Assembly: GCA_003151615.1 (NCBI GenBank)
Contig: PLXZ01000001.1
Coordinates: 200,470-244,317, forward strand
Direction: 5' to 3'
Source: Candidatus Tayloriibacteriota bacterium
Lineage (GTDB): Bacteria; Patescibacteriota; Minisyncoccia; Phycocordibacterales; PALSA-1337
Length of the DNA: 43,848 bases
Shown here piece by piece: positions 2,919 to 10,224 of the stretch (position 1 is its first letter; every line of letters begins with the position of its first letter). The notes under the pieces were generated by a model that saw only the letters and a list, made by a program, of their open reading frames with translations, was not told the origin of the DNA and did not search any database. Both the position numbers and the translations under genes were made by a program.

Positions 2919-2988
2919 CAGGTTAGTATAGCTTGAAACGATGAATTGGTGGAGTTATGACAAGTAATAAACCAAATAGTGGCAAAGA

Positions 2989-3025
2989 TTTTCTTTAAGG
3001 TAACAATTTGTGACCTTAAAGAAAA
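2989..3025. repeat. 37-bp near-perfect palindrome upstream of the ORF6N gene
   Basis: The arms at 2989-3001 and 3013-3025 are perfect 13-bp inverted repeats. The inner 11 bp add four of five further pairs around a centre at 3007, giving 17 of 18 pairs. Its core ACAATTTGTGA recurs in a second palindrome inside the next gene (3331-3359). It lies about 75 nt upstream of the ORF6N start and is a candidate operator or RNA hairpin. Confidence 0.8.
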
Positions 3026-3098
3026 GTTATCCCCAGAAGTCTAAAATTTTGATAAAGTTTTTGTAATTAACAAATTTTTTTGGTGATAAGATTTGTGA

Positions 3099-3650
3099 AT
3101 GAGTATTAAAGAATTTTCCAATAAAGAAATTCAGATTTCACCTGAACACATAACCCAGAAAATTTTCCTTATTCGTGGCAGGAAAGTTATGTTTGCGCAG
3201 GATCTGGCAGAAATATATGAAGTAGAAACAAGAATCCTCAATCAGGCAGTCAAAAGAAACAAGGAGCGATTTCCTGATGATTTTATGTTTAGTTTGAATC
3301 AGGAAGAAACCACGCAATGGCAGGGATATCTTTCAAGATCACAATTTGTGATCTTGAAACAAGGCAGAAATATCAAGTATTTACCGCTCGTCTTTACTGA
3401 ACACGGCGTTGCCATGCTTTCCTCTGTTTTGAAAAGCGAACGCGCGGTTGAGATGAATATTTTTATAGTTCGTGCATTCGTAAAACTTCGGGAGATGCTT
3501 GCAACAAACAAAGATTTGGCACAAAGGATGGATAAGCTAGAGCTTGAACAAAAGGATCAGGGAAATCTGCTCGCGTCGGTATATTCAATAGTGAAGCAAC
3601 TTATTGATACACCGGCCAAATCTGTAGGGAAGATTGGCTTCGATATTTGA
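3099..3650 (+). CDS. ORF6N domain-containing DNA-binding protein
   Basis: A 183-aa protein with an N-terminal ORF6N domain, the DNA-binding module known from phage regulators and common in CPR genomes. Typical features are IFLIRGRKVMFAQDLAEIYE (about residues 22-41), NQAVKRNKERFPDDF, and YLPLVFTEHGVAMLSSVL (about 95-112). The C-terminal third is predicted helical or coiled coil (LAQRMDKLELEQKDQ) and may oligomerise. TAAGAT at 3087-3092, preceded by TGA, ends 6 nt before the ATG, so the mRNA may be leaderless. Two related palindromes, one upstream and one within the gene, suggest autoregulation (inference). Transfer from phage is plausible. Confidence 0.88.
   Translation: MSIKEFSNKEIQISPEHITQKIFLIRGRKVMFAQDLAEIYEVETRILNQAVKRNKERFPDDFMFSLNQEETTQWQGYLSRSQFVILKQGRNIKYLPLVFTEHGVAMLSSVLKSERAVEMNIFIVRAFVKLREMLATNKDLAQRMDKLELEQKDQGNLLASVYSIVKQLIDTPAKSVGKIGFDI
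3331..3359. repeat. 29-bp perfect palindrome inside the ORF6N gene
   Basis: Fourteen perfect pairs around a single centre base at 3345. Aligned by centre to the palindrome at 2989-3025 it matches 22 of 29 positions. Six of the seven differences form three symmetric compensating pairs (offsets 7, 11 and 14). It encodes the SRSQFVILK segment of the ORF6N domain. Confidence 0.8.
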
Positions 3651-6041: not shown

Positions 6042-7598
6042 ATGGCACTTCCTATAAATATAGAAGAATTAATAACTGGCAAAACCGTTGAATGGGAACG
6101 GATTGAATTTAAGAAAGGTTGGAATCCTCTCGATACAATCCAATCTGTTTGTGCTTTTGCAAATGACATTAATAATTGGGGCGGAGGATATATCGTTTTG
6201 GGTATTGAAGAGGGAGGAGGTCGTCCAGTCCTTCCTCCGAAAGGTATTGATATAAATAAGGTCGATTCAATTCAAAAAGAAATGCTCCAACTTTGTCATG
6301 AGATGCGGCCGCAATATTTCCCAATTATTGAGCCTGTAGATTTATATGGGAAAAAAGTATTGATAATTTGGGTTCCTGGTGGTGAGGTACGTCCTTATAA
6401 AGCACCTGATTCATTTGGTAAACCTAGAAATTATTCTTACTATGTAAGACGTTTTTCGTCGACAAAGAAAGCAAATGATAAGGAAGAAAGAGATTTATTA
6501 GTTATGTCGGCACATATTCCTTTTGACGATCGTGTTCAGCAAAATGCTAAGCTCACCGATATTAAACTTCCTTTAATCCAAGAGCACCTTGCTAAAATTG
6601 GTAGTAATTTATTATCGCATACGTCTTCTATGGCATTTGCTGATCTATGTAGAAAAATGAACATTGCTTCTGGTCCAGACGAGTATCTTAGGCCAAAAAA
6701 TATTGGATTGTTGCTTTTTAATGATGATCCACAAAACTTTTTTTCATGCGCAAGGATTGACCTTATTCAATTTAAAGATGAATCAGGTGATGAATTTACT
6801 GAGAAGTTGTTTAGCGGACCATTGCAACAGCAACTACAAGATGCACTCTTGTATATAAAAAATAATATAATTGCAGAGCAAGTAAAGAAAGTTAAGACAA
6901 GAGCTGAGGCTATTCGATTCTACAATTATCCATATGAAGCAATAGAAGAAGCACTTGTGAATACTGTTTATCACAGGAGTTATGAAGATGACAGTCCAAT
7001 TGAAATTAGAATCCTTCCTAACTATATAGAAATGCTTAGTTATCCTGGTCCGTTACCGCCTTTAACAAAAGCTAAACTTCTTGCCGGTAACATAGTTGCA
7101 CGAAAATATAGAAACAGAAGAATTGGTGATTTTTTAAAGGAACTCCATCTTACTGAGGGGAGGGGAACTGGAATCCCAAAAATTAAGAAATCAATGAAGA
7201 AAAACGGTTCACCCGAACCTTTATTCGATACTGACGATAATCTGGCTTATTTCTTAGTGAGATTACCGATTCATCCAATGTGGGTAAAACAAGATGATAT
7301 ACAAGTTGATGTACAAGATGATATACAAGTTGATAAGCTTATACTTAAGTATTGTTTAAGACCAAAGAAGCGTAAAGAGATTATGACTGAGTTAGGTCTA
7401 TCAAATAGTCATGCTACTTTCGGAAGATATGCAGGTCACTTAATTTCTAAAAAATTATTAGAGCTTACTGTTCCTGATAAGCCAAATAGTAAAAATCAAC
7501 AGTATAGGACGACGTCTAAAGGTGAACACTTTCTAAAAGGAGCTTCTGAAGAGGAGATAGAAGGACAAGGAACTCTTGGTTTCGATAAGAAAAAATAA
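6042..7598 (+). CDS. AlbA_2/Schlafen-like ATP-binding putative DNA-binding protein
   Basis: A 518-aa protein. The N-terminus has the AlbA_2 (divergent AAA-4/Schlafen-type) pattern: EWERIEFKKGWN, CAFANDINNWGGGYIVLGIE. The middle has a GHKL-like HATPase_c_4 module: EAIEEALVNTVYHRSYEDD (about residues 301-319) and GRGTGIPKI. A tandem acidic octapeptide (QDDIQVDV, QDDIQVDK) links to a C-terminal winged-helix-like part. Such proteins are usually called RecG-like or transcriptional regulators and some occur in defence islands; the real role is unknown. TATAAT at 6028-6033 lies 8 nt before the ATG. The region is AT-rich compared with fusA. Confidence 0.85.
   Translation: MALPINIEELITGKTVEWERIEFKKGWNPLDTIQSVCAFANDINNWGGGYIVLGIEEGGGRPVLPPKGIDINKVDSIQKEMLQLCHEMRPQYFPIIEPVDLYGKKVLIIWVPGGEVRPYKAPDSFGKPRNYSYYVRRFSSTKKANDKEERDLLVMSAHIPFDDRVQQNAKLTDIKLPLIQEHLAKIGSNLLSHTSSMAFADLCRKMNIASGPDEYLRPKNIGLLLFNDDPQNFFSCARIDLIQFKDESGDEFTEKLFSGPLQQQLQDALLYIKNNIIAEQVKKVKTRAEAIRFYNYPYEAIEEALVNTVYHRSYEDDSPIEIRILPNYIEMLSYPGPLPPLTKAKLLAGNIVARKYRNRRIGDFLKELHLTEGRGTGIPKIKKSMKKNGSPEPLFDTDDNLAYFLVRLPIHPMWVKQDDIQVDVQDDIQVDKLILKYCLRPKKRKEIMTELGLSNSHATFGRYAGHLISKKLLELTVPDKPNSKNQQYRTTSKGEHFLKGASEEEIEGQGTLGFDKKK
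7289..7334 (+). repeat. Tandem 24-nt coding repeat
   Basis: A 22-nt unit occurs at 7289-7310 and again, identically, at 7313-7334. It duplicates the eight codons of an acidic linker (QDDIQVDV/K) before the C-terminal domain. Confidence 0.9.
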
Positions 7599-8365: not shown

Positions 8366-8412
8366 GGTACTGGCCATTTTTGTAGATATGCGTTATATTG
8401 GGATGTACATCT

Positions 8413-10224
8413 ATGGACCAAAAGACCAAAGATACCTTTATTAGCAATGCTCGAAGGAACATTGCGAAAATACAGGAGTTTTTGGTAGACGAACAAAAAA
8501 AGGTCCAGCAACTCATAAATACGAAAACTTCCGGCGCGAAAGTGGAAGACAAATGGACGGAAGAATACGTCAAAGCTCTCAACAGGGATCGCCTCGTCCA
8601 GCTTCAAAAAATGCACGACTCCCCGTACTTCAGCAAATGCAATTCCACGTTTGAGGGAGTAACCAAGGATTATTATTTCGGAAAATTTTCTCTGACCGAA
8701 GAATCGATTTATTCCTGGGTGGCTCCGGTTGCGTCGATTCGTTTCGATGTGCCCGGTCCGATATCGTATCCGTTGCCAAACGGAAAAATTCGCAGCGGAA
8801 AACTTCATGAAAAAGACGAATATCAGATAGTCGACGGTAAAATTCTTTTCTACTCGACCGAATCAGAGGGAAGTCCGCGACAACTTGTCCATCAGGAATA
8901 TTTCTCGACAAAGAAAAGCGGCTTCCTTCTTCCCGAAATCGTTTCGAAAATGGAAAAAGCCCAGGATACGATTATCAGGGCTCATTACAACAATCCTTTT
9001 GTGGTATCGGGTCCTGCAGGATCGGGAAAAACGACGCTGGCTCTGCATCGAATCGCGTATCTGATGCAGGCTCCGGCCAGCACCGACATTTACAAAAATA
9101 GTTCAATTGCCGTTTTCGTTCAGGATCAGCGTTCAAAGGACTATTTCTCACACCTACTTCCCGAGCTTGGCATTACGACGGTTTCAATCATGACATTCAC
9201 CGAATGGGCGTTGGCAATTCTCGATGATATGGATACGAGCGCGGTCAATTCGTTCTCTTCCAACCTTTTGCCGGACCTTTTGTACGAGCAGGAGAAAATA
9301 TTGGCGATGAGAAGCGTTCTGTCGGCCGCAGATGAAAGTAAAAAGCCTAAATTTTCAAAAAATTATTTCGCCGGCCTCGAAAAAATATACAAGCCGTTCT
9401 TTTCCGCCGAAAATGCAGCTGTGTTCGCGAAACAAAAAAAAGAAAATGTTCTCGATCGGATTGATCTCACTCTGCTTCTGGCCTTGTATCGGCTTTCACA
9501 TAAAAAACTTTCGATAACGAAACGTACGTTTGTTCCGGACGATGACGGCGCCTTGGTCGAGAAGCGAAAAAGCGAAAGTCTCGAATATATGCTCATGGTT
9601 GTGGACGAATTTCAGAATTATTTGCCCGAACAGCTCACGATTTTGAAGGATTGCATCAATCAAGAGCATAAATCGGTCATTTATGTCGGCGACATCGCCC
9701 AGCAGATCAATCCCGGCGCCATTCGTGACTGGAACGAGATCGGCGAATTCATTCCTTCCGACCGACACGTCATTTTGAACAAGGTCTACCGAAACACAAA
9801 AAAGATTTTGAACTTCATCGGCACTCTCGGATATTCGGTGAACATTCCTGATTCGATAAAAGAGGGAACAGAAGTCGTCAACAAAAAATTCGCATCCGTC
9901 AAAGAAAAAATTGCTTTCATACAGGAATTGATTGCAAAACGTTCGGAACGCGAATCGATCGGTATTCTCGGAATCGACACCGAAAGTCTGACTGAACTCC
10001 GCAATTCAATCGAAACAAACGAATTCGTGCACATCATCACAGCCCGCGAATCCCAAGGCCTCGAATTCGACACCGTCTGTCTCGTTGGTTTCGACAAAGA
10101 CACCTATTTCGACGGTTACAAACAATTCCCCGAGCAGTTTCAGGCTGAAAAACAGAAGATTGATAGGGATTTGCTATATATTGCGCTGACCCGGGCGATT
10201 AGTGGGTTGTACTTGGTAGACTAA
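8413..10224 (+). CDS. HelD-like superfamily I helicase
   Basis: A 603-aa UvrD/Rep-fold ATPase resembling HelD/helicase IV. HelD releases RNA polymerase from dead-end complexes in Firmicutes and Actinobacteria. Family marks are the YYFGKFSLTEESIYSWVAPV block (about residues 83-102), Walker A GPAGSGKTTLALHRIAYL (about 200), Walker B VVDEFQNY (about 395), VGDIAQQINPG, ARESQGLEFD (about 542) and YIALTRA (about 588). The N-terminal coiled-coil arm is shorter than in Bacillus HelD (~770 aa). The ATG at 8413 is preferred; a TTG at 8398 overlaps the TATATT -10 box at 8394-8399. A bidirectional terminator follows. Confidence 0.85.
   Translation: MDQKTKDTFISNARRNIAKIQEFLVDEQKKVQQLINTKTSGAKVEDKWTEEYVKALNRDRLVQLQKMHDSPYFSKCNSTFEGVTKDYYFGKFSLTEESIYSWVAPVASIRFDVPGPISYPLPNGKIRSGKLHEKDEYQIVDGKILFYSTESEGSPRQLVHQEYFSTKKSGFLLPEIVSKMEKAQDTIIRAHYNNPFVVSGPAGSGKTTLALHRIAYLMQAPASTDIYKNSSIAVFVQDQRSKDYFSHLLPELGITTVSIMTFTEWALAILDDMDTSAVNSFSSNLLPDLLYEQEKILAMRSVLSAADESKKPKFSKNYFAGLEKIYKPFFSAENAAVFAKQKKENVLDRIDLTLLLALYRLSHKKLSITKRTFVPDDDGALVEKRKSESLEYMLMVVDEFQNYLPEQLTILKDCINQEHKSVIYVGDIAQQINPGAIRDWNEIGEFIPSDRHVILNKVYRNTKKILNFIGTLGYSVNIPDSIKEGTEVVNKKFASVKEKIAFIQELIAKRSERESIGILGIDTESLTELRNSIETNEFVHIITARESQGLEFDTVCLVGFDKDTYFDGYKQFPEQFQAEKQKIDRDLLYIALTRAISGLYLVD

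Follow-up and report, generated by a model that had tools for sequence, protein, structure and literature searches.

Palindromes inside ORF6N genes covary with the predicted recognition helix of the encoded protein

The window, as we call the whole 43.8-kb stretch of DNA analysed here, holds an ORF6N-domain gene with a perfect palindrome inside its coding sequence and a near-copy of that palindrome upstream. What keeps such symmetry in coding DNA, and what reads it? An earlier note on this DNA had suggested that selection acts on dyad symmetry for a protein dimer or an RNA hairpin, and that the ORF6N protein may bind both sites.

The two palindromes and the gene that holds one of them

2994..3020, unstranded: upstream palindrome copy (arms 2989-3025, one mismatch at -5), a poor match to the code of the window protein described below
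3099..3650, plus strand: ORF6N-domain gene, 183 aa (PF10543, 107.7 bits, residues 20-110; PADLOC candidate PDC-S05)
3332..3358, unstranded: internal 27-bp palindromic site, centre 3345, with perfect arms over 3331-3359, encoding approximately SRSQFVILK, at the same position in relatives

The odd palindromes that the earlier note had centred at 3007 and 3345 are real. Their 29-mers (CTTTAAGGTAACAATTTGTGACCTTAAAG and TTTCAAGATCACAATTTGTGATCTTGAAA) are identical at 22 of 29 positions and differ at -14, -11, -7, -5, +7, +11 and +14, such that the symmetric base-pair swaps claimed at offsets 7, 11 and 14 are borne out and -5 is the lone asymmetric mismatch, which breaks the upstream copy. The upstream arms (2989-3006 and 3008-3025) are 94% paired and the internal arms (3331-3344 and 3346-3359) 100% paired. 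No other odd palindrome in the window reaches 13 of 14 pairs, and ten first-order Markov copies of it contain none. The likeness also reaches to the left of the palindromes, as a 58-nt direct repeat (2963-3020 and 3301-3358, 72% identity), and a gapped alignment pairs 2940-3020 with coding sequence at 3276-3358. REP/BIME repeats, which have many intergenic copies per genome, were considered and set aside, the genome containing two copies of the palindrome and one further match with one mismatch.

The gene is the single ORF6N gene of its genome, and its product is an ORF6N member by profile (107.7 bits against a curated cut-off of 27.8). It also matches the PADLOC PDC-S05 model (E=6.7e-55), a membership by model in a family that is a phage-defence candidate only. 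PDC-S05 is counted in surveys as a single-gene candidate (PMC13356809); no description of its mechanism was found in the literature searched, and an in-gene site is no part of its definition. No match to the ORF6N protein was found in NCBIfam and no credible one among solved structures searched by sequence, while a fold search with the ORF6N model returned no significant match (best E 0.25) and only weak ones to 4ye7, SKI/Dachshund and MerR/BldC-like DNA-binding domains. We found no ORF6N relatives in viral contigs and no sigma-70-like promoter before the window gene. Nearby lie a SLFN/AlbA_2 plus HATPase_c_4 gene (6042-7598) and a UvrD-like helicase gene (8398-10224), a pair with partial matches to GajB/AbiO-type defence models; together with the ORF6N gene, they possibly form a small defence neighbourhood.

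Three elements of the encoded protein are referred to below:

3228..3257, plus strand: codons of the predicted recognition helix, residues 44-53 (TRILNQAVKR), a helix in the AlphaFold2 model (block pLDDT 91)
3231-3233, 3234-3236 and 3243-3245, plus strand: helix codons for residues 45, 46 and 49, which covary with palindrome bases by mutual information
3510..3605, plus strand: codons of a long C-terminal helix, residues 138-169 (AlphaFold2 secondary structure, pLDDT 56-66)

In the AlphaFold2 model, helix 44-53 follows helix 33-40 as in a helix-turn-helix, the segment encoded by the palindrome is a low-confidence loop between H68-73 and E97-100, and helix 138-169 is plausibly a coiled coil through which the protein would dimerise.

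Symmetry of the in-gene site across the family

We examined 80 relatives from Patescibacteria, Acidobacteria, Omnitrophota, Bacteroidota, Deltaproteobacteria and other groups, together with the ORF6N genes of 17 out of 287 Patescibacteria genomes and eight plasmid genes. A palindrome is present at the same coding position in 126 of 134 distinct ORF6N ORFs from many phyla. Most of the eight plasmid genes have one, with that of Haliovirga lacking a clear palindrome and those of Legionella and Butyrivibrio being imperfect. Homologues lacking the symmetry at both sites, which the earlier note had named as evidence against its reading, are not what we observe: the internal site is kept almost always, whereas external copies occur irregularly, with 30 found next to 125 genes.

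The arms are complementary at 10.35 of 11 pairs, compared with 4.65 under synonymous recoding, and 123 of 125 genes reach p<=0.01 individually. Because 83-100% of genes are paired at each of positions 2-13, counted from the centre, but only 51% at position 14, we take the unit to be 27 bp, or nine codons. Several pair types occur at most positions, and although a consensus of approximately TTTGAGGTCACAAWTTGTGACCTCAAA can be written, most of its letters vary jointly with their partners. The palindrome centre lies in one of two frames, the first in 117 cases and the second in 24, and these yield LRSQFVTSK-like or ELVTNCDRF-like peptides, and thus, the conserved thing is the DNA rather than the peptide. 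Nine genes have two palindromes. In one locus (L110:1423-2445), a single ORF6N gene carries four different palindromes in tandem, in frame and within the loop.

This pattern of symmetry could in principle reflect an mRNA hairpin with a role in translation, in mRNA decay or in attenuation, and the stems of 13-17 bp with complementary changes are of the kind that such a hairpin would have. The mismatches, however, show no excess of G.U (16 G.T versus 22 A.C), no Rfam family matches the palindrome at E<=0.1, and a hairpin would lead one to expect neither the coupling to a helix nor the matching non-coding copies described below. We consider this explanation highly improbable and reject a cis-acting mRNA hairpin on the first two grounds. 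What the earlier note had said of dyad-symmetry selection within coding sequence is supported family-wide. Its protein-recognition form is supported by the helix code described below, and its RNA-hairpin alternative is not supported.

Helix residues predict the bases of the site

When palindrome bases were compared with all protein columns other than those that the palindrome encodes, mutual information gave six outliers, each involving residue 45, 46 or 49. Base -4 is coupled to residues 49 (z = 33) and 46 (z = 21), base -5 to the same two (z = 20 and 13, respectively), and bases -7 and -8 to residue 45 (z = 21 and 11, respectively). These residues are i, i+1 and i+4 of helix 44-53 and are encoded about 100 bp from the palindrome. 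In frame 0, base -4 is A with Q49 (51/54), G with E49 (23/24) and C, which puts a G in the opposite strand, with R49 or K49 (15/17). When residues 46 and 49 are considered jointly, VQ or AQ goes with CA at -5/-4 in all 44 cases and RE with CG in 23 of 24. Base -7 is G with K45 (61/62, and 23/23 in frame 1) and A with other residues (33/35). The code holds in frame 1 for Q49, E49 and K45; in that frame, R49 combined with Y or H at residue 46 is matched by GA. Common protein-DNA contacts include Gln-A, Arg/Lys-G and Glu-C, and the pairings of residue 49 are in line with them.

The strongest of these couplings involves a silent base. Base -4 falls, in frame 0, on the third position of a serine codon, and this codon is TCA with Q49 (46/46) and TCG with E49 (22/22, p=2.5e-18), and the same holds in loci found solely by protein similarity (37/37 and 18/18, respectively). 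Neither peptide constraint nor locus ascertainment, therefore, can explain the code. When bases are predicted from proteins less than 60% identical, -7 is correct in 117 of 120 cases and the pair (-5,-4) in 90 of 111, against a chance of 0.33. Same-genome paralogue pairs of the Q49 and E49 kinds follow the code in 19 of 19 cases, with the Q and E groups being equal in G+C. Independent switches on the gene tree, whose deep branches are weakly supported, are few (4:0, 3:0 and 5:0 for three traits on starred branches). Where a gene has two tandem palindromes that differ, one of them in most cases matches the helix clearly better; loci with two in-frame palindromes, one of clearly better fit, are L041, L021, L056, L090, L170 and L181.

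The code is near-deterministic, in both frames, in paralogues and in flanking copies, and takes a similar form in Bro-N. By this code, a K45/V46/Q49 protein, such as that of the first gene of L062, should prefer GGTCACAA, and the same protein changed to R46 and E49 should prefer GGTCGCAA. For the window protein (R45/I46/Q49), it predicts CA at -5/-4 together with A at -7, and the internal site (GATCACAA) has these bases, making 3332..3358 the predicted operator of this protein. Since residues of the recognition helix predict the bases of the palindrome, proteins of the ORF6N and Bro-N type very probably recognise a palindromic word within their own genes.

The Bro-N relatives extend these observations to a second domain family. 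Bro-N genes are present in 85 of 380 Patescibacteria genomes, including that of the window, and a palindrome at the corresponding loop is observed in 21 of 21 genes tested (p<=0.05), or in 47 of 48 by a looser measure. Here, the residue in place of 46 goes with base -5, with V giving T (10/10), T giving C (8/8) and K giving G (17/21), and helix and site pair as YWTTLKNRL with GTCAC, YWKVLKNRL with GTTAC and YWNKLKERL with GTGAC. As each of these groups may be one clade, we regard the Bro-N code as supporting rather than as independent proof. The Bro-N gene of the window's own genome (L226, contig 3: 32964-33782) has the helix YWDDLKRRL and the in-gene palindrome AACTGTCCGCAAAAATCGGACAGTT. A KilA-N gene remnant (L180:613-1011) bears the same kind of palindrome, and thus, a third domain of this group may share the site.

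Template switching readily yields symmetric changes, and the palindrome might accordingly be a chance one that quasipalindrome correction keeps perfect with no selection at all. Such a process may supply paired changes, but it leaves one fixed site in two domain families and the helix code unexplained, and we judge it the least credible of the explanations considered. An early reading of our own, in which free variation under symmetry denoted pairing or hairpin copying, was likewise overturned by the helix code.

Copies outside the gene and the use of the site

Outside the coding site, copies are enriched 15.6x beside ORF6N genes, some of them just past the stop codon (20-26 nt after the last sense codon), whereas at most ORF6N genes a promoter-proximal copy is undetected. 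These external copies resemble the internal site of their own gene (6.76 versus 5.17 of 9, p=0.0005) with mostly no match in the flanks beyond the 27 bp, and they fit the helix of their own protein (p=0.0002), with some individual copies misfitting. Genome-wide, GRTCRCAAWTTGYGAYC occurs at 11 sites in 287 Patescibacteria genomes, and the reversed pattern at none. Eight of these sites are in ORF6N domains, one is just upstream of such a domain, one is in a Bro-N gene, and one precedes a nucleotidyltransferase/HEPN-like pair. This last site (L092:1202) is a solitary TGGTCGCAATTTGCGACCA right before TATAAT in a genome in which no ORF6N gene was found. In 38 genomes from relatives, the NN of GRTNNCAANTTGNNAYC is symmetric in most of the matches, and most of those inspected are inside ORF6N genes, with few being solitary.

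The upstream copy in the window fits its neighbour poorly. Both of its half-sites carry G at -7, while R45, as in the window protein, goes with A in most relatives, and when scored by the learned code, its fit to the window protein is little above that of an average family member (rank 0.58). Its left flank leads to one further feature:

2940..3020, plus strand: probable decayed ORF6N coding fragment, colinear with 3276-3358, with the upstream palindrome at its end (local alignment over 83 columns, score 27)

By itself, this left flank is aligned as well by 22 of 500 shuffles. From the G at -7 on both sides, the broken half-site at -5 and the colinear left flank, we read the upstream copy as what is left of a different, decayed ORF6N gene, which may have been of the K45 type, and the evidence for this is suggestive only. 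A second operator for the window protein is disfavoured by the poor fit to the code and the decayed-coding flank. Of the two sites that the earlier note had assigned to the protein, then, the internal one is predicted by the code and the upstream one is doubtful.

A palindromic coding element inserting in frame would be an alternative origin for the sites. PARCEL elements (Roske et al. 2010, PMC2996958) and Rickettsia palindromic elements (reviewed in PMC10969869) are palindromic coding sequences, and the ORF6N site resembles them in being coding DNA with dyad symmetry whose units may be tandem and in frame (27-33 bp apart in L021, L029, L041, L056, L090 and L110). The loop position of the site and the solitary copies in unrelated intergenic DNA (L151, L157, L160, L167, L175 and L176) are also as such an element would have them. 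Those elements, however, have spread through numerous unrelated genes or form 25-residue repeats of surface proteins, whereas the ORF6N site is fixed and helix-coupled. In our sample, it is almost wholly confined to one site in ORF6N and Bro-N genes, and mobility predicts neither coupling to a distant helix nor coupling through a silent base. We therefore find a mobile element improbable, and a palindrome dispersed through unrelated genes was rejected on the distribution of the 11 Patescibacteria sites.

The explanation that we favour, with a probability of roughly 0.75, is that the in-gene palindrome is the operator of the encoded protein, which would bind it as a dimer and thereby regulate its own gene; physical binding, dimerisation and regulatory use are each inferred. 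In the dimer, its most likely form, each subunit would insert its helix 44-53 into one arm of the 27-bp inverted repeat, with residue 49, together with 46, reading bases -4 and -5 and residue 45 reading base -7. The site would code for a flexible loop tolerant of almost any peptide, and would thus be free to change together with the helix. The bound protein may then act as a roadblock about 245 bp into the gene, giving negative autoregulation; at some loci, a further matching site lying immediately before the start codon or behind the stop codon would assist. Of the possible uses of the in-gene site, we lean towards autoregulation as the main one.

Autoregulated bacterial repressors with intragenic operators are a known general class, for which a conserved palindrome in the protein's own gene is the expected feature, and it is one that we observe here (126/134 ORFs, against the synonymous null). 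ORF6N genes share with this class a palindromic, dimer-type site, here a predicted operator, and, at some loci, a second nearby site fitting the same protein. They differ in that the site lies within the coding sequence of the DNA-binding domain, in nearly all members, with a sequence that follows the helix, and in that regulation is here a prediction. In phage lambda, the origin iterons lie within the gene for the O protein, which, as proposed here for ORF6N proteins, recognises sites in its own coding sequence with a specificity that changes with the site; lambda ori, however, is an iteron set for replication, whereas the ORF6N site is one palindrome, mostly chromosomal and not known to act in replication.

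A different use of self-recognition is that the word serves as an identity or homing tag rather than in expression control, letting the protein find its own or a relative's gene, in the chromosome or in incoming DNA, to home, exchange or exclude. Helix and site would then be swapped together, and paralogues in one genome driven to different addresses. Several observations agree with this, including the patchy occurrence over many phyla, the copies just past the stop codon, plasmid ORF6N genes with integrase neighbours, the PDC-S05 candidacy and the replacement of whole palindromes, at times with a change of frame (the gene tree has 10 of these; the L041 and L045 proteins are 83% identical, yet their palindromes are quite different). 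Paralogues in one genome also share palindrome cores less than expected (0.20 versus 0.37, p=0.0005, with the pairs being non-independent and genome groups assigned from accession numbers and handles), but this divergence fits the insulation of autoregulators equally well. A domain profile search of the window protein found neither a nuclease domain nor one of a transposase or recombinase, which speaks against an addressing role. We regard this use as unlikely.

Window protein and Bro-N relatives belong to the families PF10543 (ORF6N) and PF02498 (Bro-N), with KilA-N (PF04383) as the third domain of the group, and Bro-N genes share the phenomenon. In the open-access literature searched, we found no DNA target or in-gene site described for ORF6N or Bro-N. 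Both domains are widespread and known from phages and bacteria. Their probable DNA target can be read from each gene and is predicted by the residue-to-base code, which makes it possible to test binding, the switching of specificity and whether the proteins act in phage defence. The conserved LRSQxxTS-like peptide of the ORF6N domain would exist because of the palindrome rather than from any need of the protein, and the family thus offers a clear case of DNA-level selection shaping protein sequence.
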